Of a stretch of DNA of 64,000 nucleotides, positions 50,088-64,000 are shown one piece after another. Each line of letters opens with the position of its first letter. The first letter of the stretch is position 1. The notes below the pieces were generated by a model that was given only the letters and a program-made list of their open reading frames with translations, was not told the origin of the DNA and did no database searches. The position numbers and the translations under genes were made by a program. Where the stretch lies: NCBI RefSeq assembly GCF_024298965.1, contig NZ_CP085193.1, forward strand, positions 6,262,001 through 6,326,000, in the 5' to 3' direction. This DNA is from Streptomyces rapamycinicus NRRL 5491 (GTDB lineage: Bacteria; Actinomycetota; Actinomycetes; Streptomycetales; Streptomycetaceae).

Positions 50088-50167
50088 CCCCGGCCCGAGA
50101 CGAAAGACCACGAAGGGCCCGGACCGATACCCGGTCCGGGCCCTTCGATTGCCCTCGCGGGCGGAGG

Positions 50168-50220
50168 CGGAGGATACGAGATTCGAACTCGTGAGGGGTT
50201 GCCCCCAACACGCTTTCCAA
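50168..50220 (-). other. att site: 3' fragment of tRNA-Ser(GGA)
   Basis: Read on the minus strand, this is the 3' part of a tRNA-Ser: anticodon loop with GGA (TTGGAAA), 3' side of the anticodon stem, variable arm, T arm with TTCGAAT, and acceptor ATCCTCC plus G. The 5' half is missing: after 50220 the sequence no longer matches a tRNA. This is the classic footprint of site-specific integration by an AICE; the complete tRNA should be regenerated at the far end of the element, beyond this window. Confidence 0.85.
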
Positions 50221-50456
50221 CTGTCCGCATGACTGTACGGGGGCGTCCGTGGGCGTTCACGCAGCAGCTCAGAGGGGGCGCGCGTACGTCGGCGAACGGT
50301 GGTGTACGTCAGCGCACTGGACAAAGACCAGGACAACGGGCGGTGCCTGAGCGGAACGGGGGAGGCAAGCCATCGGCCGGTCGCACGGGGCGTGGGAAGC
50401 TGGAGGATGTGAGGCGCCACCGGGACGCCGGTGAGGTCAAGGAAAGGGGAAGCCAC

Positions 50457-50909
50457 GTGCCGCAGCGCAGTCCGCGAGGTACGTACCTGGAGGTCTCGGA
50501 AGCTCTCCGCGAGAGGATCAGGAAGGGCGAGATCACAGAAGCGTTGCCGTCTCAGGCAGCGCTCATGAGTGAGTACAGCTTGAGCCGCAGCACCATCGAA
50601 CGGGCTCTTGCTGCCCTCAAGGCTGACGGCGTAATCGAGTCCGTACAGGGCGCCGGGTGGTACGTCGCGGGGAGCGGCGACCGCCGGCCGTTGGTCGAGA
50701 AGGTGACCGACCTGTTGCGGGCCGATGGGGTCAAGGTCGGCGACCGCTTCCCCACCGAGAAGGAGCTGTGCGACCGGTTCGGGGCGTCGCGGACTGCCGT
50801 CCGTTCCGCCATCGCGCAGATGGAAGGGCAAGGGCTCATCGGCAAGGGTGCGGCGCGAGGGCGGGAAGTCCGAGCGTTGCCAGTTGGACAGGGGACCCAG
50901 ACGGCATGA
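50457..50909 (+). CDS. GntR-family regulator with two winged-helix domains (KorSA-like)
   Basis: A 150-residue regulator made almost entirely of two winged HTH units: residues about 6-70 (TYLEVSEALRERIRKGEITEALPSQAALMSEYSLSRSTIERALAALKADGVIE) and about 75-145 (PLVEKVTDLLRADGVKVGDRFPTEKELCDRFGASRTAVRSAIAQMEGQGLI). No ligand domain follows. The GTG at 50457 follows AAGGGGAAG. Such proteins repress transfer genes in AICEs. Its stop overlaps the phosphotransferase gene (ATGA). Confidence 0.88.
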   Translation: MPQRSPRGTYLEVSEALRERIRKGEITEALPSQAALMSEYSLSRSTIERALAALKADGVIESVQGAGWYVAGSGDRRPLVEKVTDLLRADGVKVGDRFPTEKELCDRFGASRTAVRSAIAQMEGQGLIGKGAARGREVRALPVGQGTQTA

Positions 50910-51808
50910 CGACGACCGAGCTCACCGAGTTCGACGCGGACGCGGCAGGGGCCATTCTGCGTAAGGCGTGCGAGGTTGCCGACGTGGACCCGGACGGAAT
51001 TGAGATGCTGCGATTCGGGGACCACGCGGTATTTCGAATTGACGGCGGTCGGATCGTCTCGCGGGTGGGGCGAAGTTCCGACCGACTTCCCTCTGTGCAA
51101 AGGGAAGTAGCGGTGGCGGGATGGCTCGCCGCTGAGGGATATCCGGCGGCACGACTTGTCACAGCAGCAACACAGCCGGTCGTCGTTCAGGGCCATCCGG
51201 TTACGTTCTGGGAAGGTCTCGCCGACGGAGAAAAGTACGCGAGTACGGGCGAGATGGGTGTACTACTGAGGCAGCTTCACGAATTGGAACCGCCGCATTT
51301 TTCTCTCCCGCCTCTTCAGCCTTTCGACAAGGTTGCGCAGCGTCTGAGTCGTGCCGCTATCCCGGATGCAACCCGCACTTTCCTCCGGTCCATGGCGGAC
51401 GATTTGGAAGCGGAGTACAGTCGTCTCCGGTTCGCGCTTCCGGTGGGGCATCTGCACGGTGACTTCAATGTCGGCAACGTCTTGCGTGACGAGACCAGCC
51501 ACCCCAAGGTCATCGACTTGGACGGGTTCGTCACAGGCCCGCGAGAGTGGGACCTTATGCAGACAGCCATGTACTACGACAGCTTCGGTTGGCATACAGA
51601 AGCCGAGTACGCCGATTTTGTCGCCGGATACGGGTTCGACGTACGGGAATGGTCCGGGTACGCCGTCCTACGCAGCATCCGCGAATTGCTGATGGTTACA
51701 TGGCTCTCGCAGAATGCTGGTACTGATTCGCGTGCAGCGGATGAAGTCGAGAAGCGGGTGGAAACCCTCCGGTCGGGTGGCTCTCGCCGAAATTGGGCGC
51801 CTTTCTAG
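50906..51808 (+). CDS. Aminoglycoside phosphotransferase family protein
   Basis: A 300-residue kinase-fold protein. The Brenner motif HLHGDFNVGNVLRDE holds the catalytic Asp and Asn, followed by VIDLDGFVTGPREWD (metal-binding Asp). The N-terminal ATP lobe is typical (FGDHAVFRIDGGRIVSRVGR, then VQREVAVAGWLAAEGY). The phospho-acceptor is unknown; resistance to an aminoglycoside is possible but not implied. It is translationally coupled to the GntR gene, and its base composition is lower in GC than the core genes. Confidence 0.88.
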   Translation: MTTTELTEFDADAAGAILRKACEVADVDPDGIEMLRFGDHAVFRIDGGRIVSRVGRSSDRLPSVQREVAVAGWLAAEGYPAARLVTAATQPVVVQGHPVTFWEGLADGEKYASTGEMGVLLRQLHELEPPHFSLPPLQPFDKVAQRLSRAAIPDATRTFLRSMADDLEAEYSRLRFALPVGHLHGDFNVGNVLRDETSHPKVIDLDGFVTGPREWDLMQTAMYYDSFGWHTEAEYADFVAGYGFDVREWSGYAVLRSIRELLMVTWLSQNAGTDSRAADEVEKRVETLRSGGSRRNWAPF

Positions 51809-51813
51809 GCGCG

Positions 51814-53187
51814 TCAACCGGCCTGCTGCCAGAGGCGGAAGCCACGGGCCTTTTCCTCGAATTCGCGAAAGTCTGTGGCCCGCCTCATTCCATCCGTGAC
51901 TCGCCCCTGGAACTCCCGTACGTACTCAATGCAGCGCGCAGACTTCAAGCCCTCACCAAGTTGTAGCGCGTTCAGCGCAATGCTGAAACCCTGGCCGATC
52001 TCCCCTTGGTTGATGTACGACTCAGCCTGAACCATCGTCGCAAAGAAGTCGCTGCGATTGTTCAGGCCATCGCCGAAGATGGAGCCCGTGCCCCGTTCCG
52101 CGGCTTCGGCGGAGCGGCCCAGGTCGCGGAAGCAGTGACCTATCTCGGCTGCAAGCTCTACTTCGTCGAAATACGCGATGTACGGCGGGTCGCTGTCTGC
52201 TGTCCGTTGGCCCAGCCTGCGTTCCGCCTCCGCAAGGGCGAGGTCACAGCCTCGCTCGTCCCCGAGACGGGCGAGGGCCCGTGCCTCCATCGCATGGAAC
52301 TGGGCGTCCATCGTGGGCCCAAGGACGCCGGCGGGGCCCGTGTACGCAGCACGGGCGAGGGTGGCCGCGTCCTGGTATCTCCCCAGGAACGTGGCCTGAT
52401 GGCTCATTGCGGACAGGACACTCCCGCCGAGAAGTCTGTCACCGGCCGCTTGCGTCATGCGTAGAGCCTGGATGAGGTAGCGCTGAGCAATCCCGTGTAG
52501 GCCGCTGTCGTACGACATCCAACCGGCGAGTAGGAGAGCTTCGGCGACAGCCGAATGCAGTTCTTTGCCTATGGCGTCGGAGTACTTCCCATCAAGCATC
52601 GGACGGACATCCGTATGCAGGTACTGGATCAGGGCCCGTCGCGCGTGACCGCCACCGAACTTTCCGTCAAGCATGCTGAACGCGTCGGCTGTCGAGCGCA
52701 CCATGTCCACGTCCACGACGCCGACCGCGCGGTTTCCCAAACGCGTGAGTTCACCGTCCGGAGGGGCGACGATCCAACGCAGGGAAGCGGTGTTCCAGGC
52801 TGCGGAGTCCGGCTGTGCTCGTACCAGCGCCTGGGCGTCGGCGAGGTCGGCCCGCCAGAGGTCAGTCACGGTCTTGACCGTGCTCTCCGGCTTGTCCGCG
52901 AAGTTAAGACCAAGCTCCGGCTGTACGGCGGAGACCGCCGCGTTGCCCATCCCGATGTCATCGATCGTGAGTTGGCGGCCCACCTTGCGCCCCACGGCGT
53001 CGGCGATGAACTGGGGCAAGTTGCCGCGCGGTATGGAGCCCTTGAGCCATCTGGTGACGTACGTGTGGTCACAGGTGATGACCTCGCCTGACCGGGCAGC
53101 AGCAGCGACCACCGCGCGGGCAAGGGACTTGTGCGAGAAGTCGCCTTCCTGCATGAGCGCGGCCAGTCTGGCGTTCTGGTCTGCCAT
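51814..53187 (-). CDS. Large TPR-containing transcriptional regulator (helix-turn-helix/Rgg-like)
   Basis: A 457-residue protein. The N-terminal about 75 residues form an HTH of the Streptomyces type (ARLAALMQEGDFSHKSLARAVVAAAARSG, then YVTRWLKGSIPRGNLPQFIADAVGRKVG). The rest is helical TPR-like repeat sequence (ALLLAGWMSYDSGLHGIAQRYLIQALRMTQAAGD, MDAQFHAMEARALARLGD, MVQAESYINQGEIGQGFSIAL), the arrangement of peptide-sensing regulators. It is convergent with the phosphotransferase gene, six bases apart. It may control element genes, and a TGCAC-rich stretch lies before its start. Confidence 0.88.
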   Translation of the reverse strand: MADQNARLAALMQEGDFSHKSLARAVVAAAARSGEVITCDHTYVTRWLKGSIPRGNLPQFIADAVGRKVGRQLTIDDIGMGNAAVSAVQPELGLNFADKPESTVKTVTDLWRADLADAQALVRAQPDSAAWNTASLRWIVAPPDGELTRLGNRAVGVVDVDMVRSTADAFSMLDGKFGGGHARRALIQYLHTDVRPMLDGKYSDAIGKELHSAVAEALLLAGWMSYDSGLHGIAQRYLIQALRMTQAAGDRLLGGSVLSAMSHQATFLGRYQDAATLARAAYTGPAGVLGPTMDAQFHAMEARALARLGDERGCDLALAEAERRLGQRTADSDPPYIAYFDEVELAAEIGHCFRDLGRSAEAAERGTGSIFGDGLNNRSDFFATMVQAESYINQGEIGQGFSIALNALQLGEGLKSARCIEYVREFQGRVTDGMRRATDFREFEEKARGFRLWQQAG

Positions 53188-53924: not shown

Positions 53925-54224
53925 ATGAAGTGCATCGTTGCTGGTCATGAGGCCGTTACCGCGAAGGATTTCGCGGAGTTGGCGTTCGGTATCGACTTGG
54001 AGCTGTTCACCGGTCCGGCCGCGGAGACCGACGAGGACCGTAGGGCGCGTCTGGACGTGGCCCGTGCGGTGCTCGCGGAGCTGCGTGAGTCGGACCCGGT
54101 GGCAGCGGCGTACGCGGCGGCGCTGCTGCGCACCGGTCCGATGAAGGGCAGGCGGCCGGCCGGTCGGCACCCGCGCCGGACGCCGGTGCGGCGCCCCGCG
54201 GTGCGGACGGCGGTGGCGGCATGA
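53925..54224 (+). CDS. Small AICE protein, unknown function
   Basis: A 99-residue protein: acidic helical front (TAKDFAELAFGIDLELFTGPAAETDEDRRARLDVARAVLAELRES), followed by a very basic tail (KGRRPAGRHPRRTPVRRPAVR). The tail suggests nucleic-acid binding. The ATG follows GAGAGGAG. It opens a row of four genes that overlap by four bases or less. I do not recognise the family. Confidence 0.65.
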   Translation: MKCIVAGHEAVTAKDFAELAFGIDLELFTGPAAETDEDRRARLDVARAVLAELRESDPVAAAYAAALLRTGPMKGRRPAGRHPRRTPVRRPAVRTAVAA

Positions 54225-54550
54225 GCGAGGGTCTGGTGTTTGACGACCTGGTCGTGCCGCTGCGCACGCTGCGTCTGCTGGCTGCGGACTTCGGGCACCT
54301 TCCGGCGCCGACCGTGAGCGTCTCGCCCATCTACCCGAAGCGGTTGGAGCTGTCGCTCCACTCCGATCTTCCCGGTTTCGAGGCGTGGCGCGAGGCACTG
54401 GGCATCGCGCCGGAGGACGTGAGCCACCGGGTACAGCGTGACGGACGTACCCAGGTCCTGCGCACCGCCACCGCCTACGCGGGCGCTGAGCTGGAGCTGG
54501 TCGGCTACGGCGACGTTCCCGCCCCGGCGCCGGTGGGGAGTGCGGCATGA
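54221..54550 (+). CDS. Small AICE protein, unknown function
   Basis: A 109-residue acidic protein. The core LVFDDLVVPLRTLRLLAADFGHLPAPTVSVSPIYPKRLELSLHSDLPGFEAWREALGI alternates strand and helix. Overlaps the previous and next genes by four bases each (ATGA), so all are translationally coupled. I see no catalytic motif; it may be a partner of the PAPS-reductase-like protein. Confidence 0.65.
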   Translation: MSEGLVFDDLVVPLRTLRLLAADFGHLPAPTVSVSPIYPKRLELSLHSDLPGFEAWREALGIAPEDVSHRVQRDGRTQVLRTATAYAGAELELVGYGDVPAPAPVGSAA

Positions 54551-55494
54551 GCGGGTCGCCGACTCCCCGACTGCGGGTGCTCTCGCTGGGCGCTGGGGTG
54601 CAGTCCACCACGCTGTTGTTGCTGGCCGCGGAAGGCCGGTTGCCGAAGTGGGATGCCGCGATCTTCTCGGACACCGGATGGGAACCGGCCCGCGTCTACG
54701 AGCACTTGGACCGGCTGGAGCGTGAGGTGGCCCAGCCTGCTGGGATCCCCGTTCACCGCGTTCGTGTGGAGGGCGGCAATGCCCAGCGGGTGAGCGGCAA
54801 TCTGCGCGCTGACTCCCTCAACCCTGGCTCGTTCGTCCGCATCCCGGTCTTCGTCATCGACCGTGCTGGGGAGCGGGCCGCGATGGTGCGGCGCCAGTGC
54901 ACCGAGGAATACAAGGTCAAGCCCATCAAGGCCAAGGTGCGGGCCATGCTTGGCTACCCGCACCCCAAGCCTGTGCCGCGCGGGGTGTTCGTTGAGCAGG
55001 CCATCGGCATCAGCCGCGATGAGTTCGAGCGGGCCAAGGACGCGTCTGTGCGCTATCTGCGCAACGTCTTCCCTCTGCTCGACTTGGACGACGCCGCCGA
55101 CGGCCGGGCGGGGTGGACTCGGAACGACTGCCTGCGCTACCTGCGTTCGCACGGGTGGGGCGAGACGCCGAAGTCGGCGTGTATCGGCTGCCCGTTCCAC
55201 GGCAACCGGCAGTGGCGTGAGCTGCGGGATCACCATCCCGAGGAGTGGGCGGACGCGGTCGACTTCGACCGGCAGCTTCGCCGGACACAGCTTCGGGGCA
55301 TCAAGGCGGCGCCGTACCTGCACCGCAGCCTGCTGCCGCTCGATCAGGCTCCGATCGACCGTGTGACCCGTAATGAGTGGGCCGACCGGCAGGGTGACCT
55401 GTTCGACGCCGTCGCCGACCAGGAAGCCGAGGATGGTGCCGCGCTGGGCTGTTCGCCGTGGTCCTGCCGCGGCAGCGGCCCGGAGGCCGCGTGA
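54547..55494 (+). CDS. PAPS reductase-like adenine nucleotide alpha-hydrolase (PP-loop ATPase)
   Basis: A 315-residue protein of the PAPS reductase/ATP-pyrophosphatase (HUP) superfamily. The PP-loop is SLGAGVQSTTLLLL (residues 13-26, a GAGVQS variant of SGGxDS), followed by AAIFSDTGWEP. A Cys lies in VRRQCTEEYKVKPI (C118), and the C-terminal part carries CIGCPFHGNRQW (C212, C215), resembling cysteine motifs in related enzymes that bind metal or FeS. True sulfate-assimilation enzymes have KRT...ECG(L/I)H tails, absent here. Homologues occur in phages and DNA-modification (DndC-like) loci; the reaction here is unknown. Confidence 0.85.
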   Translation: MSGSPTPRLRVLSLGAGVQSTTLLLLAAEGRLPKWDAAIFSDTGWEPARVYEHLDRLEREVAQPAGIPVHRVRVEGGNAQRVSGNLRADSLNPGSFVRIPVFVIDRAGERAAMVRRQCTEEYKVKPIKAKVRAMLGYPHPKPVPRGVFVEQAIGISRDEFERAKDASVRYLRNVFPLLDLDDAADGRAGWTRNDCLRYLRSHGWGETPKSACIGCPFHGNRQWRELRDHHPEEWADAVDFDRQLRRTQLRGIKAAPYLHRSLLPLDQAPIDRVTRNEWADRQGDLFDAVADQEAEDGAALGCSPWSCRGSGPEAA

Positions 55495-55877
55495 TGTCCG
55501 CCGTGTTCGGCCGGTGCTACGACCCGACCGGCGCCTTGCACGGCGTGCCTACTTACCCGTGGCGCCTGGCTCCCGACGGGTTGGCCACCCGCCGACAGCT
55601 CCGTGCCCGGGGCTCACGGCCTGGCGGTCAGCCGATCGCGGCGCAGGTGATGCGGGTCAACCGCCGCACGGGGGAGGTGCGGGTGGCCTACCTCTACCGC
55701 GTCGACCGGGCCAAGCCGGTCCGTCCGATGACCTCCCGCAAGTGGGGCGCGCTCGCGCTGGCGATGCTCGCCCGCCGCACCTGCCCCCGCTGCCGGCTGG
55801 ACGTCGGCTACTGCATACCGCGCTCGCGCGGCATCTGCGGGGTGTGCATCGCCACCGAGGAACAGGCCACCACCTAA
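55494..55877 (+). CDS. RRQRL-motif zinc-binding protein
   Basis: A 127-residue protein of a family common in actinobacterial conjugative elements. The characteristic stretch is TYPWRLAPDGLATRRQLRARGSRPGGQPIAAQVM (here RRQLR), and a C-terminal zinc ribbon has CPRCRLDVGYC then CGVC. It overlaps the PAPS-reductase-like gene by one base (TGATG), so the two are coupled. The zinc ribbon suggests nucleic-acid binding. Function not established. Confidence 0.8.
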   Translation: MSAVFGRCYDPTGALHGVPTYPWRLAPDGLATRRQLRARGSRPGGQPIAAQVMRVNRRTGEVRVAYLYRVDRAKPVRPMTSRKWGALALAMLARRTCPRCRLDVGYCIPRSRGICGVCIATEEQATT

Positions 55878-55902
55878 CCCCTTCGAGAACCAGGAGCTCC
55901 CC

Positions 55903-56979
55903 ATGAGCGACACCCCGGAAAGGTCCCTGTCCAGGGGACAGACGATCGTTTTGTGCGCCGCTGCGGTGCCCATGGTCGCCTTCGGCGGTCTGGGCGCGGT
56001 CGGCACCTACAGCAACATCACATCCGTGTTCCACCGGTCGGCCACCGCGCTGGGCGTGGTCGCGGCCGGCGAGGGCGCGACGCTGGTCCTGGCGCTGGTC
56101 CTGGTCGGTTTGACCATGCTGGGGCAGTCCGCTCCGGCGGCCGTGCGGATCGGGCTGTGGACGCTGCCGGCGGTGGCCTCGGTGACCGGCGCCGCGGTCG
56201 CGAAGACCGTGACGGAGGCGGTGGTGTTCGCCGTCACCCCTATGGCCATGTGCGTCTCCGCGGAAGGCATGGGTCTGCTGGCCCGCCGGATCGTGGTCTA
56301 CCGCACGGGCGTGGATGCCGAAGCGCAGCGCCGGAACGCGGCCGTGATGCAGCGGCTGGCCTACCACCGCGCCCGTGCCGCCAACCACCCCGACGAGAAA
56401 GCGCGTAACGGCTCGGAGCTGGAGTCGTGGAAGCTGGCGAAGAAGGTCGGTGCGGGGGATGCCCTGCTCGGGGCGAACCTGGTCGATGTCCAGCGCGGGC
56501 GGATGACGACCGGCGCGGACGCCGCTCTTGCAGGCATGTTCGCCCTGCCCGTCACACCCTCTGCCCACGGCGTCACGGACGCTCCGGCCCCGCACGCGGT
56601 CGAGGGCGCGGACGAGGCGGGCGTCACGCCCCCCGTCACGGGCGTCACACCCCCCGTGACGGATGAAGGCACGCAGGTCACACCCGAAAAAGAGCCCGTG
56701 CCGTCGCAGCCCGTCACGCCCGTGACGCCCCCGCCGGAGACGCCCGTGACGCTGGAGGAGATCGCGGCCGTGGCGGGCGTGCCCACGCCGGTGGTGGGGG
56801 AGCCGCTGAGTGATGCGCAGCTCGTGGTCGTCCTGCGGCACCTGCGCTACACCGACGACCCGCCGCTGTCCTACCGCCAGGCCGTGGCCGCCTTCCGCGA
56901 GGCCGGTTTCGTCGGCGGGGAGCAGCGGGTGCGCCTGGCGTGGGGCTCGCTGATGTCCCATGAGGAATCCGGCGCCTGA
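55903..56979 (+). CDS. AICE membrane protein (SpdB-like, DUF2637-type layout)
   Basis: A 358-residue protein with four TM segments in residues about 15-130 (IVLCAAAVPMVAFGGLGAVGTY, ATLVLALVLVGLTMLG, GLWTLPAVASVTGAAVAKT, AVVFAVTPMAMCVSAEGMG), a helical cytoplasmic part, then a Val-Thr-Pro repeat linker (GVTPPVTGVTPPVT) and a C-terminal HTH-like helix bundle (LSDAQLVVVLRHLRYTDDPPLSYRQAVAAFREAGFVGGEQRVRLAW). The linker is encoded by repeated GTCAC/GTGAC words. It is probably a spread or transfer component working with TraB. Confidence 0.8.
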   Translation: MSDTPERSLSRGQTIVLCAAAVPMVAFGGLGAVGTYSNITSVFHRSATALGVVAAGEGATLVLALVLVGLTMLGQSAPAAVRIGLWTLPAVASVTGAAVAKTVTEAVVFAVTPMAMCVSAEGMGLLARRIVVYRTGVDAEAQRRNAAVMQRLAYHRARAANHPDEKARNGSELESWKLAKKVGAGDALLGANLVDVQRGRMTTGADAALAGMFALPVTPSAHGVTDAPAPHAVEGADEAGVTPPVTGVTPPVTDEGTQVTPEKEPVPSQPVTPVTPPPETPVTLEEIAAVAGVPTPVVGEPLSDAQLVVVLRHLRYTDDPPLSYRQAVAAFREAGFVGGEQRVRLAWGSLMSHEESGA

Positions 56980-57000
56980 CCAGTGTCCGGCACCACCAAT

Positions 57001-57033
57001 GAGGGCCAGCCCACGGGAATTGGGCTGGCCCTC
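57001..57033 (+). terminator. Terminator after SpdB-like gene
   Basis: A perfect 12-bp stem (GAGGGCCAGCCC and its complement GGGCTGGCCCTC) with a nine-base loop, 21 bases beyond the stop at 56979. Confidence 0.9.
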
Positions 57034-57209
57034 GTTGCGACTGCCGGAAGCAGTCGACCGCACCAGTGAAGCAGACCCGGTGAGCCCCGGCGAGCGGCAC
57101 CGTCGCAGACCCGGAGAGCAGACCCGGCGCGCTGACCTCCACACGGACGCGGCCCACCAAGAGGCCGCGCGCCGCCCGATCAAACTCGATTCGACCAGGA
57201 GAGTCGCCC

Positions 57210-57461
57210 GTGACCACCCAGGCTCAGCAGACCACCGGCCCGGCCGCTCAGCAGCAGGGCTCGCACCACTTCGTCCTGACCCTCCAGGAGCCGCACGGTG
57301 GGGGCTTCATCAGCGCGACGTTCACCAACACCATCACGCCTCGCCCCGGCACCACCCGGGCTGACATCTACGAGGCACTGCGCGAGCAGGTCACCCGCGC
57401 GAACCCGGAGCTGGCGAACGCCAACGTCATGTTCTTCTCGCTGGAGCCCAACGGGCTCTGA
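57210..57461 (+). CDS. Small AICE protein (83 aa)
   Basis: An 83-residue protein with a Gln/Thr-rich start and the core HHFVLTLQEPHGGGFISATFTNTITPRPGTTRADIYEALREQVTRANPELANANVMFF. It looks like a small alpha/beta fold. Similar proteins occur beside spread genes of Streptomyces AICEs, as I recall; no role is known. Its GTG follows AGGAGA. Confidence 0.7.
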   Translation: MTTQAQQTTGPAAQQQGSHHFVLTLQEPHGGGFISATFTNTITPRPGTTRADIYEALREQVTRANPELANANVMFFSLEPNGL

Positions 57462-57548
57462 GCAGCAAGTTTCAGCAGTGCCCGGACGCGGCCGGCCAAA
57501 GCGTGCGTCCGGGCGCTGCTCTCCCTTCAGACAAGGAGTGCTGTCAGC

Positions 57549-59138
57549 ATGACCGACACCAGCACCGAAGCGGTAGCGGCCCCCCAGGCCGCTCCCGCGC
57601 CGCCGGTCGAGAAACCGCCCGAGCCGGCATCCGCCCCGGCCCCCACTCCGGCCGCGTCCGAGGTGGAGCACACCCCGGGCGGGTGGCCGGTGGTGCCGCT
57701 GGCTACGACCGGCGCGAACACCACGATCGGCGCGGTCGCGTCCGCCGGCCTGGTCGGCGGACCGGTCGGCGCCATGGTCGCCGCCACCGGCGCCGTGGTC
57801 CTGGCCACGGTGGCCGCCGCCCGCTCCCGCAAACCCAACCCCCGCCGGAACGCCCGGCGGACCGCCGCCCGCGCCGCCGGCCGTAGCGCTGCCCGCAGCG
57901 CGGGCCTGCACCGTAGCGGCGCGTTCGGTGGTGGCCGGACGGGAAGCCGTTCGGGTGGCTCTCGTGCGGGCCGCGCGGGCGGTATGCCGGGCCGGAACCG
58001 ATCCGGCAACCGTCCCGCTGCTCGCCACGATGGTGCGTCCACCAGCGGCAGGACACTCGGCAAGGCCGGACACGGCGCGTCCAAGCACTCGCCCGGCGGC
58101 ACGAGGAAGAGCGCTGGCAGGGTCGGGCAGATACGGGGTCTGCGGGCCTCGCAGCAGGCCGCGGCCGGATCCCGCGCGGACCAGCGGGCGCAGACCACCG
58201 CGGCCCGCCGCGCGGTCGCCGACGCCCGCCGCAACGCCAAAGCCGCCGCCGGCAACAACCGGCTGAGCAAGCGCGGGAGTTCCGGCGGTGGCCTGCTGGG
58301 CGGCGCCGTCCGCAAGGCCCGTGCCGGACGGGATGCGGCCATCGACAAGAACCGGGCCCGGCGCGATGCCAAGACCGGCGCCGATGTGGCGGCGCAGCGG
58401 GCGGCGGTCCGCAAGGCCCCGGCCCGGAAGGCGGCCCGGAGGGCGCTTCGGCGATCCGCGGCCCGCTTCCACGGGCGCCGCCTGATGGCGGCCCTGCTCG
58501 CCCTGCCCACAGGTCTGCTGGGCTGCCTGACCACTCCGATCGGGCGCAAGTTCGATATCCCGTGGCTGATGTACCCCGGGCGCCGCCTGTACTGGCGGAT
58601 GGTCCGCACGGCCGCCGAGCAGCGCGCGGCACGGGACGAGACCACCCGCCAGAACCTGCGTGAGCAGGAGGAGGCCGCCGACGCGGAGGCCGCCGAGGAC
58701 GGCACGGAAGACGTCGCGGACAGCGTGGAGCGGCCCGCGGCCAAGGTCCCCACCGGCACCACACCCCAGACCCAGGTGAGTGAAGGAGAGCACGTGTCCG
58801 GTTTCCAGTTCGAAGAGACCGCGGCCGAGATGGAACAGGCCGCCAACTCCTACGACCCCGACAACGCCATGGAGATCCTGGCCATGGTCGAGGGGCTCCC
58901 GGCCGCGCTGACCAGCGTGGCCAACGTGATGAAGATCCTCGCCGAGCGCTCCGACAGCGAGTTCCCGCTGGAGAAGGAAGTCGCGTCCGGCTTCAACGAC
59001 ATCTTCGGCGCCCTGATGAGCACCGTCGCCGTCGCCGAGGACATGGGCCCGCTGTTCCGGCAGGTCCACGCCCAGGACATCGCCCGCCACGAGGACCCCC
59101 GCAACGGCCACCAGGCCGAGAAGGGCTGGAACGTCTGA
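57549..59138 (+). CDS. AICE transfer-associated protein with Arg/Ala-rich domain
   Basis: A 529-residue protein. It begins with a Pro/Ala-rich segment, one hydrophobic stretch (GANTTIGAVASAGLVGGPVGAMVAATGAVVLATVAA), a long Arg/Ala/Gly-rich central part (residues about 95-305, strongly basic, likely DNA- or membrane-binding), another short hydrophobic stretch (MAALLALPTGLLGCLTTPIG), and an acidic helical C-terminus (from about 360). It ends two bases before the traB-like gene, so the two are probably cotranslated. It resembles large spread proteins of AICEs. Confidence 0.8.
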   Translation: MTDTSTEAVAAPQAAPAPPVEKPPEPASAPAPTPAASEVEHTPGGWPVVPLATTGANTTIGAVASAGLVGGPVGAMVAATGAVVLATVAAARSRKPNPRRNARRTAARAAGRSAARSAGLHRSGAFGGGRTGSRSGGSRAGRAGGMPGRNRSGNRPAARHDGASTSGRTLGKAGHGASKHSPGGTRKSAGRVGQIRGLRASQQAAAGSRADQRAQTTAARRAVADARRNAKAAAGNNRLSKRGSSGGGLLGGAVRKARAGRDAAIDKNRARRDAKTGADVAAQRAAVRKAPARKAARRALRRSAARFHGRRLMAALLALPTGLLGCLTTPIGRKFDIPWLMYPGRRLYWRMVRTAAEQRAARDETTRQNLREQEEAADAEAAEDGTEDVADSVERPAAKVPTGTTPQTQVSEGEHVSGFQFEETAAEMEQAANSYDPDNAMEILAMVEGLPAALTSVANVMKILAERSDSEFPLEKEVASGFNDIFGALMSTVAVAEDMGPLFRQVHAQDIARHEDPRNGHQAEKGWNV

Positions 59139-59139
59139 C

Positions 59140-61257
59140 ATGAGCGCCACCGCCACCGCCAAACAGCACAGCAGTGGCCCGGTGCTGGACTGGGCTGCCG
59201 GTCACGGACCCGTGACCGGCGCCCTGTCCGCGACCACCGGAGCCTTCGCCGTCGCCACCACCGGCGCCGCCACCTCCATGCCCCCCACCTGGGCACTCGC
59301 AGTCGGCGCCGCCGGCGCCCTCGGGCACACCGTCGTGGGCTTGCGGGTACGCAACGCCGGCCGCACCCTGGCCACCCGCGCCGCCTCCTGGCTCGTCGGC
59401 GCCGGCTGGACCACATGGGCCATGACCCACGGCCCCCTCACCTGGACCGCACTCGGGTCCCTGGCCACGATCGGGGTCGGGATCGGGGCCGCCGCACGGT
59501 CCACCGCCCTGTTCGAGGAGGCCCGCGAGGAGGAAGCCATCGCGGCCGAGCAGCGCCAGATCGCCCAAGAACTCTCCGCGGAGCGCCGGGAGATCGCCGC
59601 GGAATGGGTGGAGCGGATCCGGCGGATCTGCAACATCACCGTGCGCGTGCTCGGCGTGGAGAAGTGGGAGACCGGCGCCGGCTACTCCCTGGACCTGGAA
59701 CCGCAGGGCGGCATCACCTACGACCGCATCGCCCAGTACTCCGTGCAGCTCTCCGCAGATGCCCGGCTGCCGCATGGCTGCACCGCCACCGCCGCCCCCG
59801 GCATCCACCAGGGCCGGACCATCATGGACGTGACCACCGTCAACGTCCTGGAAGAGGAGCGCACCTACCCGGCCGACTACGGGCCGCTGTCGGTGATGAC
59901 GGGCATCCCGTGGGGCTACCGCACGAACGCCGAGCAGATCCGCGCGTACCTGCGGGAACAGTGCGCGCTGGTCGTCGGCCCGACCGGATCGGGCAAGACC
60001 AACATGGTCCACGCGATCCTCGCCGGATTCGCCCGCGCCGAAGACATGCTGACCTGGGTGATCGACCTCAACGCCGGGTCGGCGGGCCTGCCCTGGGTCC
60101 TGCCCGCCCTCAACGGCGAGATCAGCCACCCCGAGGGCAGGACGGTCCGGCCGGGGGTGGACTGGCTCGCCGGTACCTACGAGGAAGCCGTGACCATGCT
60201 GGACGCGGCGGTACGGGTCGCCAAGCAGCGCAAGATGGGCTACCAGGACCTGCTCGCCAAGGCGAACACGGACCTGCTGCCGATCAGCCCGGCCATCCCT
60301 CAGATCATGCTGGTGATCGATGAGGGCGCTGAGATCCTGGCCAGCGCCGACCGGCGGATGCGCAAGCTCGGCGAGAAGATCCTGGAAGTCATCCGGATCG
60401 CCCGCGCCATGGGCCTGCGCACCGTGCTGACCGCGCTCGGAGCCACCGGCAGCGTCCTGGGCAACCTGATGATCCGCCGGGAAGCCAAGGTCCGCGTCGC
60501 CCTCACCGGCGGCGAGACCGAGGGCATGGACCTGAGCAAGATGTTCCCCGGCACCCGCGGCCTGCGCGTGGACCAAGCCCCCTACAAGGGCTCAGGGTTC
60601 ATGGGCACCCCGGAGTCCCCGGCCGCGCTGTTCAAAACCTGGCGCGTCCTGCCGAACCAGATCAGGGAGATCATCGCCGCCACATCCGACCGGCACCCCG
60701 TCCTGGACGACCTGTCGGCCAAGGCAGCCGGGCCCGCCTACGCCCGCCGCTGGGACGCCGACCGCATCGGATGGATGCGCGACCACACCCCCGGCACCGA
60801 TGAGGGCACCGACAACGCTCCTGCCGGGGCGGGGCTGAATCTGTCCGCGCTGCAAGGCGAGCAGGACAGTGGGCAGGACTCGTCGGAGAACGAGATGCTG
60901 CGCCGTTTCCGGGCCGAGATCGATGCCCAGTTCGCCACCGCCCCCGACCCAAACGCCCCCGACTCGGACGCTCCCCCGGCCGAGGCGGGTGGGCTGAGGC
61001 TGTCCGCGCTGCGGGGTGAGCAGGACAGCCCGGCGCAGCGGGAAGCGCTCGCGCTGCTGCTCGCCGCTGGCACCGAGGGCACCGGAGCATCTGCCATCGC
61101 CCGCGCGCTCGCCGACACCCACGGCACGACCCGTCAGACGGTCGTCGGCTGGCTCAAGACCTGGGTGGAGAACGGCACTGCCGTACGAGTCGGGGAGGGC
61201 ACCAAGGCCCGCTACGTCCACCGCCAACACGCCCCCGGACAGCCCCCCGAGAACTGA
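59140..61257 (+). CDS. traB: FtsK/TraB-type double-stranded DNA translocase
   Basis: A 705-residue conjugation ATPase that in Streptomyces pumps double-stranded plasmid DNA between hyphae. Two TM segments lie at residues about 51-70 and 82-118. The motor has Walker A GPTGSGKT (280-287), Walker B MLVIDEGAE (390-398), and an FtsK-like core. The C-terminal part holds a Gly/Asp linker with two similar LxLSALxGEQDS segments, and a winged-helix-like end (GASAIARALADTHGTTRQTVVGWLKTWVENGTAVRVG) expected to read the clt repeats. It is followed at once by a GACAAG array. Confidence 0.94.
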   Translation: MSATATAKQHSSGPVLDWAAGHGPVTGALSATTGAFAVATTGAATSMPPTWALAVGAAGALGHTVVGLRVRNAGRTLATRAASWLVGAGWTTWAMTHGPLTWTALGSLATIGVGIGAAARSTALFEEAREEEAIAAEQRQIAQELSAERREIAAEWVERIRRICNITVRVLGVEKWETGAGYSLDLEPQGGITYDRIAQYSVQLSADARLPHGCTATAAPGIHQGRTIMDVTTVNVLEEERTYPADYGPLSVMTGIPWGYRTNAEQIRAYLREQCALVVGPTGSGKTNMVHAILAGFARAEDMLTWVIDLNAGSAGLPWVLPALNGEISHPEGRTVRPGVDWLAGTYEEAVTMLDAAVRVAKQRKMGYQDLLAKANTDLLPISPAIPQIMLVIDEGAEILASADRRMRKLGEKILEVIRIARAMGLRTVLTALGATGSVLGNLMIRREAKVRVALTGGETEGMDLSKMFPGTRGLRVDQAPYKGSGFMGTPESPAALFKTWRVLPNQIREIIAATSDRHPVLDDLSAKAAGPAYARRWDADRIGWMRDHTPGTDEGTDNAPAGAGLNLSALQGEQDSGQDSSENEMLRRFRAEIDAQFATAPDPNAPDSDAPPAEAGGLRLSALRGEQDSPAQREALALLLAAGTEGTGASAIARALADTHGTTRQTVVGWLKTWVENGTAVRVGEGTKARYVHRQHAPGQPPEN

Positions 61258-61341
61258 TCGCTTGTCGCCTGTCGGCACCCACCGAACAACAGGCCCCAGG
61301 GACGGGCCAGGGGGCTCGGAAACGGCTTGTGACCTGCAAGG

Positions 61342-61408
61342 CGACAAGCGACAAGACAAGACAAGCGACAAGCAAGACGACAAGCCACACGACAAGAAAG
61401 ACGACAAG
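61342..61408 (+). repeat. GACAAG repeat array, candidate clt/TRS site
   Basis: Eight copies of GACAAG in 67 bases: six are CGACAAG, at 61342, 61349, 61366, 61378, 61390 and 61402, and two overlap at 61355 and 61360. An inverted CTTGTC lies at 61261. It starts 85 bases behind the traB-like stop. TraB proteins of Streptomyces elements recognise short repeated TRS motifs located beside traB, so this array is a good candidate for the transfer locus. Confidence 0.7.
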
Positions 61409-61479
61409 CACACCACCCACCGCACGGGCCCGCGCCACCTATCGGCGCGGGCCCGCGGCACACCCTGAGGGAGCCAGAA

Positions 61480-61794
61480 ATGAGCCAGCACACCCCGCCC
61501 GGCCAGATGGCCCCGCACATCCCCGCCGACGTCTTCCAGCGCGCGCAGGCCACCGGACAGCCGGTCGTCATCGTCGTCAACGACACCACCCCGCCCGGCT
61601 TCCCGTGGCAGCGCGTCCTGATCCCGTTCGCCATCGCCGGAGCGGTCGTCGCCGGCGGCTGGGGACTGGCCGCCGCCCTGTGCTGGCTGCTCGACGTCGC
61701 CACCCACACCGCGACCGCCATCGCCGGAGCCACCGCCGGACCCCTCGGCGTCGGCGGCATCACCCTCAAGCTCTTCCAGCCCAAGAACAAGTAG
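61480..61794 (+). CDS. Small membrane protein of the transfer region (SpdA/SpdC-like)
   Basis: A 104-residue protein with two hydrophobic stretches (residues about 45-67 and 70-95): WQRVLIPFAIAGAVVAGGWGLAAALCWLL and THTATAIAGATAGPLGVGGITL. The N-terminus is Pro/Gln-rich. The ATG follows GAGGGAG. Small two-TM proteins in this position of AICEs aid intramycelial spread. It ends 14 bases before the DpdA-like gene. Confidence 0.75.
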   Translation: MSQHTPPGQMAPHIPADVFQRAQATGQPVVIVVNDTTPPGFPWQRVLIPFAIAGAVVAGGWGLAAALCWLLDVATHTATAIAGATAGPLGVGGITLKLFQPKNK

Positions 61795-61808
61795 ACGGGC
61801 GTTGATCG

Positions 61809-62603
61809 ATGCGGTTCTACCTGACCACCCACAAGCGACACTGGGTGCGCTTAACCGAGGTGCCGCTGTTCCTGAAGTCGGAGCACTTCGTGAAGGCGGT
61901 CAAGCTCGACCCCGCTCACGGCCCGTACGCGGTGGACTCCGGTGGCTTCTCGGAGCTCCAGCGTCATGGCCGCTGGACCCGTGGCCCGCGTCAGTACGTC
62001 GATGATCTGCGCCGCATCCGGGAGTGCGTGGGCCCGTTCGACTGGGCCGCTCCGCAGGACTGGATGTGCGAGCCGATCATGGTCCAGGGCGGCACGGTCG
62101 GCGGACAGCGCTTCGTCGGCACCCACCTGAGCATCGCGGAGCATCAGCGCCGCACCGTGGCCAACTACCTGGAGCTCCGGGAACTGGCGCCGGACCTGCC
62201 GATCGTGCCCGTGCTCCAGGGCTGGGATCTCCCAGACTACGAACGGTGCGTGGCCCTGTATGAGCGGGCCGGGGTCGACCTGACCCGGGAACCCACCGTC
62301 GGACTTGGCTCCGTCTGCCGACGGCAAGCCACCCGCGAAGCCGTCGCCATCGTCACCACCCTCGCCGGACACGGGCTGAAGCTGCATGGCTTCGGCTTCA
62401 AGACCATCGGCCTACAGCGAGTCGGCCACCTGATGGCCTCCGCCGACTCCGCCGCATGGAGCTACCACGCCCGCAAGCGCCCGCCCATGCCCGGCCACAC
62501 CCACAAGAACTGCGCCAACTGCCTGCCCTACGCGCTGGCCTGGCGCCTGCGCGTGCTCGCCGCGCTTCCCGGCTGGCAACAGCCCCTGCTCAACGCGGCC
62601 TAA
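61809..62603 (+). CDS. DpdA-like 7-deazapurine DNA-guanine transglycosylase family protein
   Basis: A 264-residue TGT-fold protein. YAVDSGGFSELQRHGRW (D43-F47) corresponds to the TGT DSGGFQ motif that holds the catalytic Asp; PVLQGWDLPDYERCVALYERAGVDL, TVGLGSVCRRQATREAVAIV and LKLHGFGFKTIGL follow the barrel. A His/Cys cluster HTHKNCANC (230-238) may bind zinc. DpdA enzymes exchange guanine in DNA for preQ0-type bases. The canonical system needs further dpd genes, not seen here. Codon 15 is TTA (61851-61853), the only in-frame TTA I found, so translation should need the bldA tRNA. DNA rather than tRNA as substrate is inference. Confidence 0.8.
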   Translation: MRFYLTTHKRHWVRLTEVPLFLKSEHFVKAVKLDPAHGPYAVDSGGFSELQRHGRWTRGPRQYVDDLRRIRECVGPFDWAAPQDWMCEPIMVQGGTVGGQRFVGTHLSIAEHQRRTVANYLELRELAPDLPIVPVLQGWDLPDYERCVALYERAGVDLTREPTVGLGSVCRRQATREAVAIVTTLAGHGLKLHGFGFKTIGLQRVGHLMASADSAAWSYHARKRPPMPGHTHKNCANCLPYALAWRLRVLAALPGWQQPLLNAA

Positions 62604-62626
62604 CCCACATCCAAGGAGAGATCAGC

Positions 62627-63073
62627 ATGTCGTTCGGAGAGACCACGATCACCATCATCGGCAACCTGACCGCCGACCCCGAGCTGAAGTTCACCGACAA
62701 CGGATCGGCGCTGGCGAAGTTCACCGTCGCCTCCACCCCGCGCACCTTCGACAAGGACTCCGGTCAGTGGCGCGACGGCACCTCCACCTTCTTCCGCTGC
62801 GCCGCCTGGCGCTCCCTGGCCGAGCACGTCGCCGAGAGCCTGACCAAGGGTTCCCGCGTGGTGCTCTCCGGCCGGATCCGTCAGCACAACTGGCAGACCC
62901 CGGAGGGTGAGAACCGGTCCATGCTCGCCGTCGAGGTGGACGACATCGGCGCCTCCCTCCGCTTCACCACCGTCGACATCAACGGCAAGCGCACCAACGG
63001 CCCCGCCCGCTCCGACTCCCCGTGGAACACCTCGGGCAACCCCGCGGAGCCGGGCAACGAGCCGCCGTTCTAA
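62627..63073 (+). CDS. ssb: Single-stranded DNA-binding protein
   Basis: A 148-residue OB-fold protein. The core GETTITIIGNLTADPELKFTDNGSALAKFTVAST, then DGTSTFFRCAAWRSLAEHVAESLTKGSRVVLSGRI, is standard SSB. The tail is short and ends in EPGNEPPF, with terminal PPF resembling the acidic tip that recruits partners. The ATG follows AAGGAGAG. It belongs to the element, so is a second SSB beside the chromosomal one. It follows the DpdA-like gene after 23 bases. Confidence 0.96.
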   Translation: MSFGETTITIIGNLTADPELKFTDNGSALAKFTVASTPRTFDKDSGQWRDGTSTFFRCAAWRSLAEHVAESLTKGSRVVLSGRIRQHNWQTPEGENRSMLAVEVDDIGASLRFTTVDINGKRTNGPARSDSPWNTSGNPAEPGNEPPF

Positions 63074-63079
63074 CTGCGC

Positions 63080-63124
63080 CCGGGGCGACCGCCCGATCTC
63101 GCCAAAGACACGCGGTCGCCCCGG
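63080..63124 (+). terminator. Terminator after ssb
   Basis: A perfect 12-bp stem (CCGGGGCGACCG and CGGTCGCCCCGG) with a 21-base loop, directly behind the ssb stop. The methyltransferase gene begins 40 bases later. Confidence 0.8.
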
Positions 63125-63163
63125 CCAACCAGTCCACAACCAACCTGTTGGAGGCACCCCAGC

Positions 63164-64000
63164 ATGACCCGCCACCCCACCGAGCCGCCGGAGGGCGGCA
63201 ACATCAGCCTGTGCACCGGATCCGGTGCGCTGGACCTGGCCGTGGAAGCCGTCACCGGCCTGCCCACGGTCATCGTCGGCGAAAAGGACCCGGCCGCCTC
63301 CCGGCTGCTGGCCACCCGCCTGCCCCACGCCCGGAACCTGGGTGACATCACGGCCGTCGACTGGCCGACGCTTTCCGCGGCGCTGCCGCGCCCGGCGGCA
63401 CTGACCGCCGGCTTTCCCTGCCAGGACATCTCCAACGCCGGACCTCGGGGAGGGATCGCCGGTGACCGCTCAGGACTGTGGAAAACCATCGCCCACGCCA
63501 TTCGCCATCTTCGACCCCGAATCGTCTTCCTGGAAAACGTCGCAGCCCTCCGAAGCCGCGGACTCGACGTCGTCGCAGCCGACCTGGCCGCGTGCGGGTA
63601 CGACGCACGGTGGATGTGCCTACGCGCTGGAGATCCCGAAATCGGAGCCTGCCACCGCCGAGACCGCTGGTTCGCCATCGCCTATCCCGCTGCTGAAGAC
63701 CCCCACATCCCAGCTGGGACGCAACGGCGGACCCCAGCACCCGGACAAACGCAAAGCGGGCGGACACGGGCCCACGCTGGAGGACGAAGTGGTCTTCTTG
63801 CTGCCCCCGACGGACGCATGAGCCTGCTGCCCACCCCCGCCGCCGCCGACGGAACCGGCGGCCCCGGAACCTCCCCCAAACGGCAGGGCGGCATGAACCT
63901 GCGCACCGCCGTCACCCTCCTGCCCACCCCCGCCGCACGCGACTGGAAGTCCGGCGCCTCCAACCTGATGGAGGCCAACTCCCGCCCGCTGAACGAAGTG
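63164..64000 (+). CDS. C5-cytosine DNA methyltransferase, 3' end beyond window
   Basis: At least 279 codons, open to the window edge (no stop). Motif I is ISLCTGSGALDLA (residues 14-26), motif IV GFPCQDISNAG (catalytic Cys86), motif VI FLENVAALRSRG (Glu124), motif VIII HRRDR (164-168). After this the sequence becomes Arg/Pro/Gly-rich and then reads LLPTPAAADGTGG and LLPTPAARDWKSG, the repeat-like target-recognition sequence common in phage methyltransferases. A second coding-looking frame overlaps it (63462-63821). The ATG at 63164 has GGAGG 11 bases upstream. Confidence 0.88.
   Translation, partial: MTRHPTEPPEGGNISLCTGSGALDLAVEAVTGLPTVIVGEKDPAASRLLATRLPHARNLGDITAVDWPTLSAALPRPAALTAGFPCQDISNAGPRGGIAGDRSGLWKTIAHAIRHLRPRIVFLENVAALRSRGLDVVAADLAACGYDARWMCLRAGDPEIGACHRRDRWFAIAYPAAEDPHIPAGTQRRTPAPGQTQSGRTRAHAGGRSGLLAAPDGRMSLLPTPAAADGTGGPGTSPKRQGGMNLRTAVTLLPTPAARDWKSGASNLMEANSRPLNEV
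63462..63821 (+). CDS. Overlapping frame inside the methyltransferase gene
   Basis: An open frame of 119 codons lying entirely within the methyltransferase gene, shifted by one base. Its product looks real: PFAIFDPESSSWKTSQPS and TWPRAGTTHGGCAYALEIPKS, then PLLKTPTSQLGRNGG and a PDKRKAGGHGPTLEDEVVFLL end. This is a sequence style I recall from separate phage genes next to methyltransferases. By hand count its codons end in G/C about as often as the methyltransferase codons or more. The stop (TGA, 63819-63821) overlaps an ATG in the methyltransferase frame that starts MSLLPTP. Either dual coding or a frame accident. Confidence 0.5.
   Translation: MTAQDCGKPSPTPFAIFDPESSSWKTSQPSEAADSTSSQPTWPRAGTTHGGCAYALEIPKSEPATAETAGSPSPIPLLKTPTSQLGRNGGPQHPDKRKAGGHGPTLEDEVVFLLPPTDA

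Follow-up and report, generated by a model that had tools for sequence, protein, structure and literature searches.

How does a mobile element that is transferred as double-stranded DNA pass the restriction enzymes of its recipient? This question is raised by a 64,000-nucleotide window (bases 6262001-6326000 of the 12.47-Mb single-contig genome of Streptomyces rapamycinicus NRRL 5491), at whose right end lies an actinomycete integrative and conjugative element (AICE) with a DpdA-like DNA guanine transglycosylase, SSB and a C5 cytosine methyltransferase between its transfer and replication genes, and a PP-loop ATPase ahead of the transfer genes. TraB, the translocase of such elements, has been reported to transfer double-stranded DNA (PMC9513070, PMC3218068). 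The reading that we prefer, with confidence that is evenly balanced, is that this AICE carries swappable base-marking genes linked to its replication, which may protect double-stranded DNA during transfer. The original prediction had seen in the PP-loop ATPase, a zinc protein, DpdA and the methyltransferase a coordinated self-modification kit; its observation is partly confirmed and its interpretation partly supported, self-modification by swappable single genes being plausible.

Delimitation of the element

A 55-bp exact direct repeat, corresponding to the 3' part of the tRNA-Ser(GGA) gene, was found at positions 50166-50220 of the window (attL) and, with the numbering continued past its end, at 68915-68969 (attR; L010:4915-4969), and the gene of a tyrosine integrase (PF00589, E 3e-19) ends beside the right copy. 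The repeat at both ends and the integrase at the right copy therefore define an element of about 18.8 kb, inserted in the tRNA-Ser gene. The AICE that had been predicted is real, although it is larger than described: it begins 3.8 kb to the left of the start first given, and its attR lies 5 kb beyond the window end.

Published criteria for AICEs are an integrase, a Prim-Pol or RepAM (DUF3631) replication protein and an FtsK-like transfer protein (Ghinet et al. 2011, PMC3218068). Besides the integrase and the flanking repeats at a tRNA gene, the element has a replication module with Prim-Pol (PF09250, E 7e-47) and RepAM/DUF3631 (PF12307, E 1e-59), and an FtsK/SpoIIIE-like translocase, TraB (59140-61257, + strand), recognised by PHROG 31069 (E 1e-91), with Pfam PF01580 below its cut-off (14.8 of 24 bits). 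From position 53925 the named genes are all transcribed in one direction, in the order hypA, hypB, PP-loop ATPase, zinc protein, membrane-type protein, basic protein, FtsK-like translocase, small membrane-type protein, DpdA, SSB, C5 methyltransferase, Prim-Pol, DUF3631 and integrase. The element thus resembles the AICEs with Prim-Pol and RepAM in its tyrosine integrase by a tRNA gene, in Prim-Pol followed by DUF3631 and in its FtsK-like protein (Ghinet et al. 2011, PMC3218068). What sets it apart is that DpdA, SSB and a C5 methyltransferase lie between its transfer genes and its replication genes; the passages of that paper drawn on here name no DNA base-modification gene. The calls of PP-loop ATPase, DpdA, SSB and C5 methyltransferase made in the original prediction hold, by PHROG 424, PF23859, PF00436 and PF00145, respectively.

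The DpdA-like protein

The DpdA-like DNA guanine transglycosylase (61809-62603, + strand) matches PF23859 with E 7e-75 and 252 bits, against a curated cut-off of 27. Its predicted structure has the fold of tRNA-guanine transglycosylases (TGT), in which the catalytic Asp and the residues of the zinc site are conserved, and the best Foldseek match is 7ui4, the DNA preQ0 insertase of known structure; preQ0/preQ1 enzymes share this fold class. Sequence searches of the PDB gave no meaningful relative of DpdA or of the PP-loop protein, and relatives were found by the fold searches; the name PptA, met in the PDB sequence search, was followed into the literature and yielded nothing relevant. Residues D43, D84, Q137, D213, C235 and C238 are invariant in 38 relatives, with C235 not present in all of another set of 20. 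Purifying selection acts on dpdA, with a median dN/dS of 0.23 and a maximum of 0.58 across 29 genes (406 pairs), hosts with and without preQ0 genes being pooled.

The DpdA family counts 4243 proteins at E <= 0.001, solo DpdA and others together, 120 of them listed. In a separate listing of relatives of the element DpdA, the phage entries are nearly all from mycobacteriophages, mostly 44-49% identical, and Orion is not among the entries shown. In genome G069, two equal-scoring distant DpdA copies point in opposite directions, one close to each end of the main contig (C1:20595-21305 and 9598416-9599126), as expected for terminal inverted repeats.

DpdA neighborhoods and the position upstream of Prim-Pol

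Conservation of the DpdA neighborhood was studied at the best 80 of 114 named genome loci, a set that partly overlaps with L081-L120, holds several loci from one genome and includes some on short contigs. In 41 of them, DpdA is at least 70% identical to that of the element (close loci); the other 39 are more distant. Prim-Pol is present in 40 of the 41 close loci, on the same strand and downstream of dpdA, at a distance of up to 1.6 kb in 39 of the 41 and with a median gap of 288 bp (40 loci). Other genes at the close loci are the zinc protein (31), SSB (9), a C5 methyltransferase match (3) and the PP-loop gene (1), with neither VUT nor Que genes (0 each). DpdA is therefore a recurrent AICE gene. 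At the 39 more distant loci, Prim-Pol was found in 13 and VUT upstream of dpdA in eight; of 80 viral DpdA loci, 16 have VUT upstream of dpdA and five a QueC match within the stretch. The viral counts for VUT, as well as those for the PP-loop gene, lack a proper background rate, as an SSB control scan of the viral contigs gave just eight loci at 38% identity.

In a second class of DpdA, which shares about 50-55% identity with the element protein, a YhhQ/VUT-like transporter gene lies directly upstream (L116, L118, L264, L271, L272, L275, L277, L281, L288 and L290, and plasmids L121 and L122), with the edges of the VUT and dpdA matches 39 to 111 bp apart at six loci (G331, G050, G096, G224, G186 and G333). 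The transporter and this second class are likely a salvage-and-insert pair. Some phages carry YhhQ (PMC6884629), and YhhQ is reported in about 9% of dpd islands (GATOR-GC, PMC11888242), so VUT beside DpdA is not new in kind.

In the element, dpdA is followed by SSB (62627-63073, + strand; PF00436, E 7e-28) and by the C5 cytosine methyltransferase of 425 amino acids (63164-64000, + strand, running on to 64441 past the window end; PF00145, E 6e-27, and motifs). No cognate endonuclease was recognised beside the methyltransferase among the proteins scanned, several element open reading frames matching no family. We examined about 1.4 kb upstream of the 30 Prim-Pol genes most similar to that of the element, its own included, a set chosen by similarity rather than drawn at random. 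This position holds a methyltransferase of the element's type in four loci (one weak), a second methyltransferase sequence type in five, DpdA in two and SSB in seven; a methyltransferase or DpdA is present in 11 of the 30, and 14 have neither of these nor SSB. PHROG 363 is the best match of both methyltransferase types (5/5 for the second type), which makes them branches of one family.

It is quite unlikely, in our estimate, that the position between transfer genes and Prim-Pol is a dedicated DNA-marking slot, in which two methyltransferase sequence types or DpdA would replace one another, DNA would be marked while being copied for transfer in double-stranded form, and DpdA would use 7-deazaguanine from secondary metabolism of the donor or its neighbors, or another base. 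If true, this would tie antibiotic-type nucleoside metabolism to conjugation success.

A second element in the same genome

The second element extends from about C1:7136266 down to its integrase at 7121862; its ends were not found, as there is no clear repeat. Parts of it are 87-93% identical to the first element, with which it aligns in blocks of 93% identity over 685 columns, 89% over 2004, 92% over 290 and 88% over 1531. Of the translocase gene just 238 columns align (74%), and the part from Prim-Pol to the integrase remains unaligned at the same setting. The zinc protein and the 425-amino-acid methyltransferase are present, and the PP-loop gene, DpdA and SSB are absent: hypB runs directly into the zinc gene with no PP-loop gene between, and the place of DpdA and SSB is taken by a gene that resembles the kinase portion of polynucleotide kinase-phosphatase (TIGR04075, E 6e-32; PF13671). 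This gene content identifies the zinc protein as backbone, and the PP-loop gene and the DpdA-SSB pair as separable cargo at two places.

The RRQRL-motif zinc-binding protein (55458-55877, + strand; NF041638, E 3e-43) had been predicted to be coupled to the PP-loop ATPase. The second element, which has the former without the latter, contradicts this, as does the wide spread of the zinc family, and the zinc protein was rejected as a PP-loop partner. The spread was measured in 343 Streptomyces genomes, own genome included, a genus sample in which about 6 to 13 candidates were scored per genome, so that counts are lower bounds; draft contigs and the limited number of scored candidates can conceal some co-located gene pairs. 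Family matches were found in 37 genomes for DpdA, 103 for the PP-loop protein, 213 for the zinc family and 139 for Prim-Pol (E <= 1e-40).

The PP-loop ATPase

The PP-loop ATPase (54547-55494, + strand) has a PAPS-reductase/sulfur-transferase fold and matches PHROG 424 (E 2e-52). It lies within 15 kb of DpdA in only two of the 343 genomes (G000 and G333), and a PP-loop match anywhere in the genome is found in 12 of 37 DpdA genomes and in 91 of 306 others (Fisher p 0.71). At DpdA loci the PP-loop gene is present in two of the 80 named and, in a distant form, in three of the 80 viral ones, and a PP-loop scan of viral contigs returned two loci only. A general pairing of the two genes was rejected on the genus survey, and the PP-loop ATPase is probably not a partner on which DpdA as a rule depends.

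A class of PP-loop proteins 53-59% identical to that of the element was followed over wider surroundings in 11 loci, the ten best-scoring and a second copy in G333. A TraG/TraD-type coupling protein is found in 10 of them (two proteins Pfam-checked), and in five the PP-loop gene is directly joined to the coupling-protein gene. In L101, L102, L104, L105 and L108, it overlaps the TraG/TraD-type gene or sits a few bases from it, and four of these loci also have a DnaB-like gene close by. Methyltransferase matches are near the PP-loop gene in four of the 11 loci, and also in L121 and L278. The PP-loop ATPase is probably separate cargo of conjugative elements, an adenylating enzyme of sulfur or amide transfer. 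That it serves ordinary sulfur metabolism instead, as an auxiliary gene of the PAPS/APS-reductase type that does not act on DNA, we consider somewhat unlikely, as both its repeated place near coupling proteins and the nearby methyltransferase matches would be unusual for housekeeping metabolism. A thio role in DNA modification is no more than a suggestion, from the predicted fold and a weak, partial match to SspD (E 6e-11, PADLOC).

Two rare actinobacterial loci have the proposed kit almost contiguous, which favors a link between the genes, as do the three viral DpdA loci with a distant PP-loop gene. On the Embleya plasmid (L121:2627-8738), a methyltransferase, a helix-turn-helix gene, the PP-loop gene, VUT and DpdA follow in a row on one strand, and two genes ahead of them lies another methyltransferase; in Allokutzneria (L278:7639-10810), partial methyltransferase matches, the PP-loop gene and DpdA are close together on one strand.

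A coordinated anti-restriction kit, in which PP-loop protein, zinc protein, DpdA and methyltransferase supply thio, deazapurine and methyl chemistry, would agree with these two loci, with the position of all the genes on one strand of one element and with the partial SspD match. Nevertheless we judge it very unlikely, because the second element splits the set, the PP-loop gene and DpdA are so seldom co-located in genomes and at named and viral DpdA loci, the zinc protein belongs to the general backbone, and a PADLOC scan of 10 element proteins found no Dnd or Ssp partner. Co-occurrence across elements, proposed as a check of the original prediction, failed for the whole set (2/343; p 0.71; methyltransferase in 3/41 close DpdA loci); in favor of the prediction are the recurrence of DpdA with Prim-Pol (40/41), the methyltransferase or DpdA upstream of Prim-Pol (11/30) and the Embleya and Allokutzneria loci.

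Substrate sources and weighing of the proposed mechanism

In the preferred reading, of swappable marking genes linked to replication, the one-directional gene block would hold base-modifying genes at exchangeable positions, which would be expressed on excision and replication of the element. The double-stranded circle moved by TraB would then already be marked, with 5-methylcytosine and, where available, 7-deazaguanine, and such DNA would better survive the restriction enzymes of the recipient. The C5 enzyme, if expressed, is likely to methylate DNA, and DpdA is likely to exchange guanine only in the presence of a 7-deazaguanine; the element may thereby be protected during transfer. Plasmid DNA of E. 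coli acquired low dPreQ0 with phage 9g DpdA alone, and several, not all, restriction enzymes were resisted by phage DNA with abundant 7-deazaguanine (PMC6884629).

The S. rapamycinicus genome has homologues of QueE, QueD, FolE and QueC together at C1:9870566-9874197, so the element's DpdA could draw on preQ0 from a chromosomal gene cluster elsewhere. Pfam matches are above cut-off for the radical SAM, PTPS, GTP cyclohydrolase I and QueC families, and host FolE passes the NCBIfam subfamily cut-off; the NCBIfam equivalogs are best or near best yet below cut-off for QueE (102 of 206 bits), QueD (83 of 89) and QueC (137 of 150). By these matches, preQ0 is likely, though not certainly, available in S. 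rapamycinicus. The homologues sit with genes that, by eye, encode SARP-like regulators, a methyltransferase, and oxygenase-like and ATP-grasp-like proteins (L080:2324-16119), and the region is possibly a 7-deazapurine natural product cluster.

Several results weigh against the preferred reading. QueC (E <= 1e-30) occurs in 23 of the 343 genomes, in three of 37 with DpdA (one match, in G155, being weak and with an internal stop) and in 20 of 306 others (p 0.73), so there is no association, and host preQ0 genes were discarded as a predictor of DpdA elements. Substrate sources were surveyed in 35 of the 37 DpdA genomes, G165 and G170 being left out for their weak DpdA fragments. Bacterial TGT was found in none of the 35, while all 14 control genomes matched, 10 above cut-off; a QueE homologue (E below 1e-50) is present in six and a Vut_1 match in seven. 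In 23 of the 35 there is no QueC, no QueE below 1e-50 and no Vut_1 (YhhQ-type) transporter, and most hosts are therefore without a known DpdA substrate; five genomes with a fainter match to QueE (E 6e-6 to 1e-4; G331, G159, G050, G215 and G155) were not credited with it as a source, and counting them would remove G159 and G215 from the 23. Hutinet et al. 2019 (PMC6884629) reported no 7-deazaguanine in the DNA of phage Orion, which has DpdA alone and whose host lacks preQ0 genes; on plasmids in E. coli, resistance to EcoRI came with dG+ and not with low dPreQ0 (PMC6884629). Cargo of AICEs is described as often in decay (PMC9513070). Furthermore, 19 of the 30 nearest Prim-Pol loci have no recognised modifying gene in the slot, and the second methyltransferase type has no Pfam family in either of the two proteins scanned.

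These hosts without a source also suit two other explanations. In the first, DpdA awaits its substrate: it is idle or swaps guanine for guanine in most hosts, and works only after transfer of the element into a cell able to make or import 7-deazaguanine. The Orion result (PMC6884629) is consistent with this, as is the upstream YhhQ-like gene that the second DpdA class has of its own (8/39 distant named loci, 16/80 viral); we consider it unlikely, since the dN/dS of about 0.23 (hosts pooled) and the intact active-site residues suggest regular use. In the second, AICE DpdA inserts a different base, or 7-deazaguanine from an unrecognised importer, rather than host-made preQ0. Purifying selection on the whole gene while most surveyed hosts show no known route argues for it, and a preprint suggests that further transporter families may exist, YhhQ being in about 9% of dpd islands (PMC11888242). 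It is doubtful, however, given that no candidate base or importer was found here and that the fold class is that of preQ0/preQ1 enzymes.

Other genes of the element

The left part of the element contains a GntR-type regulator (50199-50909, + strand; PF00392, E 1.3e-25; true start uncertain), a phosphotransferase-like cargo gene of the APH family (50657-51808, + strand; PF01636, E 1.3e-19; start uncertain, its frame overlapping the GntR gene) and an NsdA-family regulator on the opposite strand (51814-53187, - strand; NF053720, E 6e-125). The pair of APH-family kinase gene and opposing NsdA-family regulator (50657-53187) recurs at the DpdA loci L239 and L274.

Small conserved proteins are encoded by hypA (53925-54224, + strand) and hypB (54221-54550, + strand), both common to the second element. 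Downstream of the zinc gene there is a membrane-type protein (55903-56979, + strand; PHROG 16651, E 2e-55), also common to the second element, which by its position we take to be Spd-like, and a large basic protein of the transfer block (57549-59138, + strand), whose homologues adjoin TraB at other loci. Between traB and dpdA lies tmS (61480-61794, + strand), a small membrane-type protein judged by eye, with no Pfam match.

Relation to known systems and significance

The likeness to dpd islands (dpdA-K) is DpdA itself, of TGT fold and with 7ui4 as best match; the element protein has 264 amino acids, versus 413 residues in 7ui4, its neighbors are tmS and SSB, and no dpdB-K homologue was found among the element proteins scanned, no genome-wide search having been made. 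The likeness to Dnd/Ssp phosphorothioation is a PP-loop ATPase with a partial SspD match, and the difference is that its partners are missing among the 10 proteins scanned. The DpdA-only phages, such as Orion, share with the element a DpdA without preQ0 synthesis genes beside it; in contrast, Orion is a virus of M. smegmatis, which has no preQ0 genes (Hutinet et al. 2019, PMC6884629), whereas here a conjugative element resides in a host with preQ0 genes of its own.

No description of DpdA on AICEs was found in the titles and abstract openings of the open-licence papers listed. The parts are known; the recurrence of a solo DpdA next to the replication genes of AICEs, mostly where the host has no recognised source of substrate, seems to be undescribed in the open-licence literature searched.

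DpdA has so far been studied in phages and genomic islands, and here it is a recurrent gene under purifying selection in conjugative elements that move double-stranded DNA. If DpdA marks element DNA, this would be a concrete answer to how such DNA passes restriction; otherwise an unknown substrate or reaction would be indicated by a large family that was met here mainly in hosts lacking recognised 7-deazaguanine metabolism.

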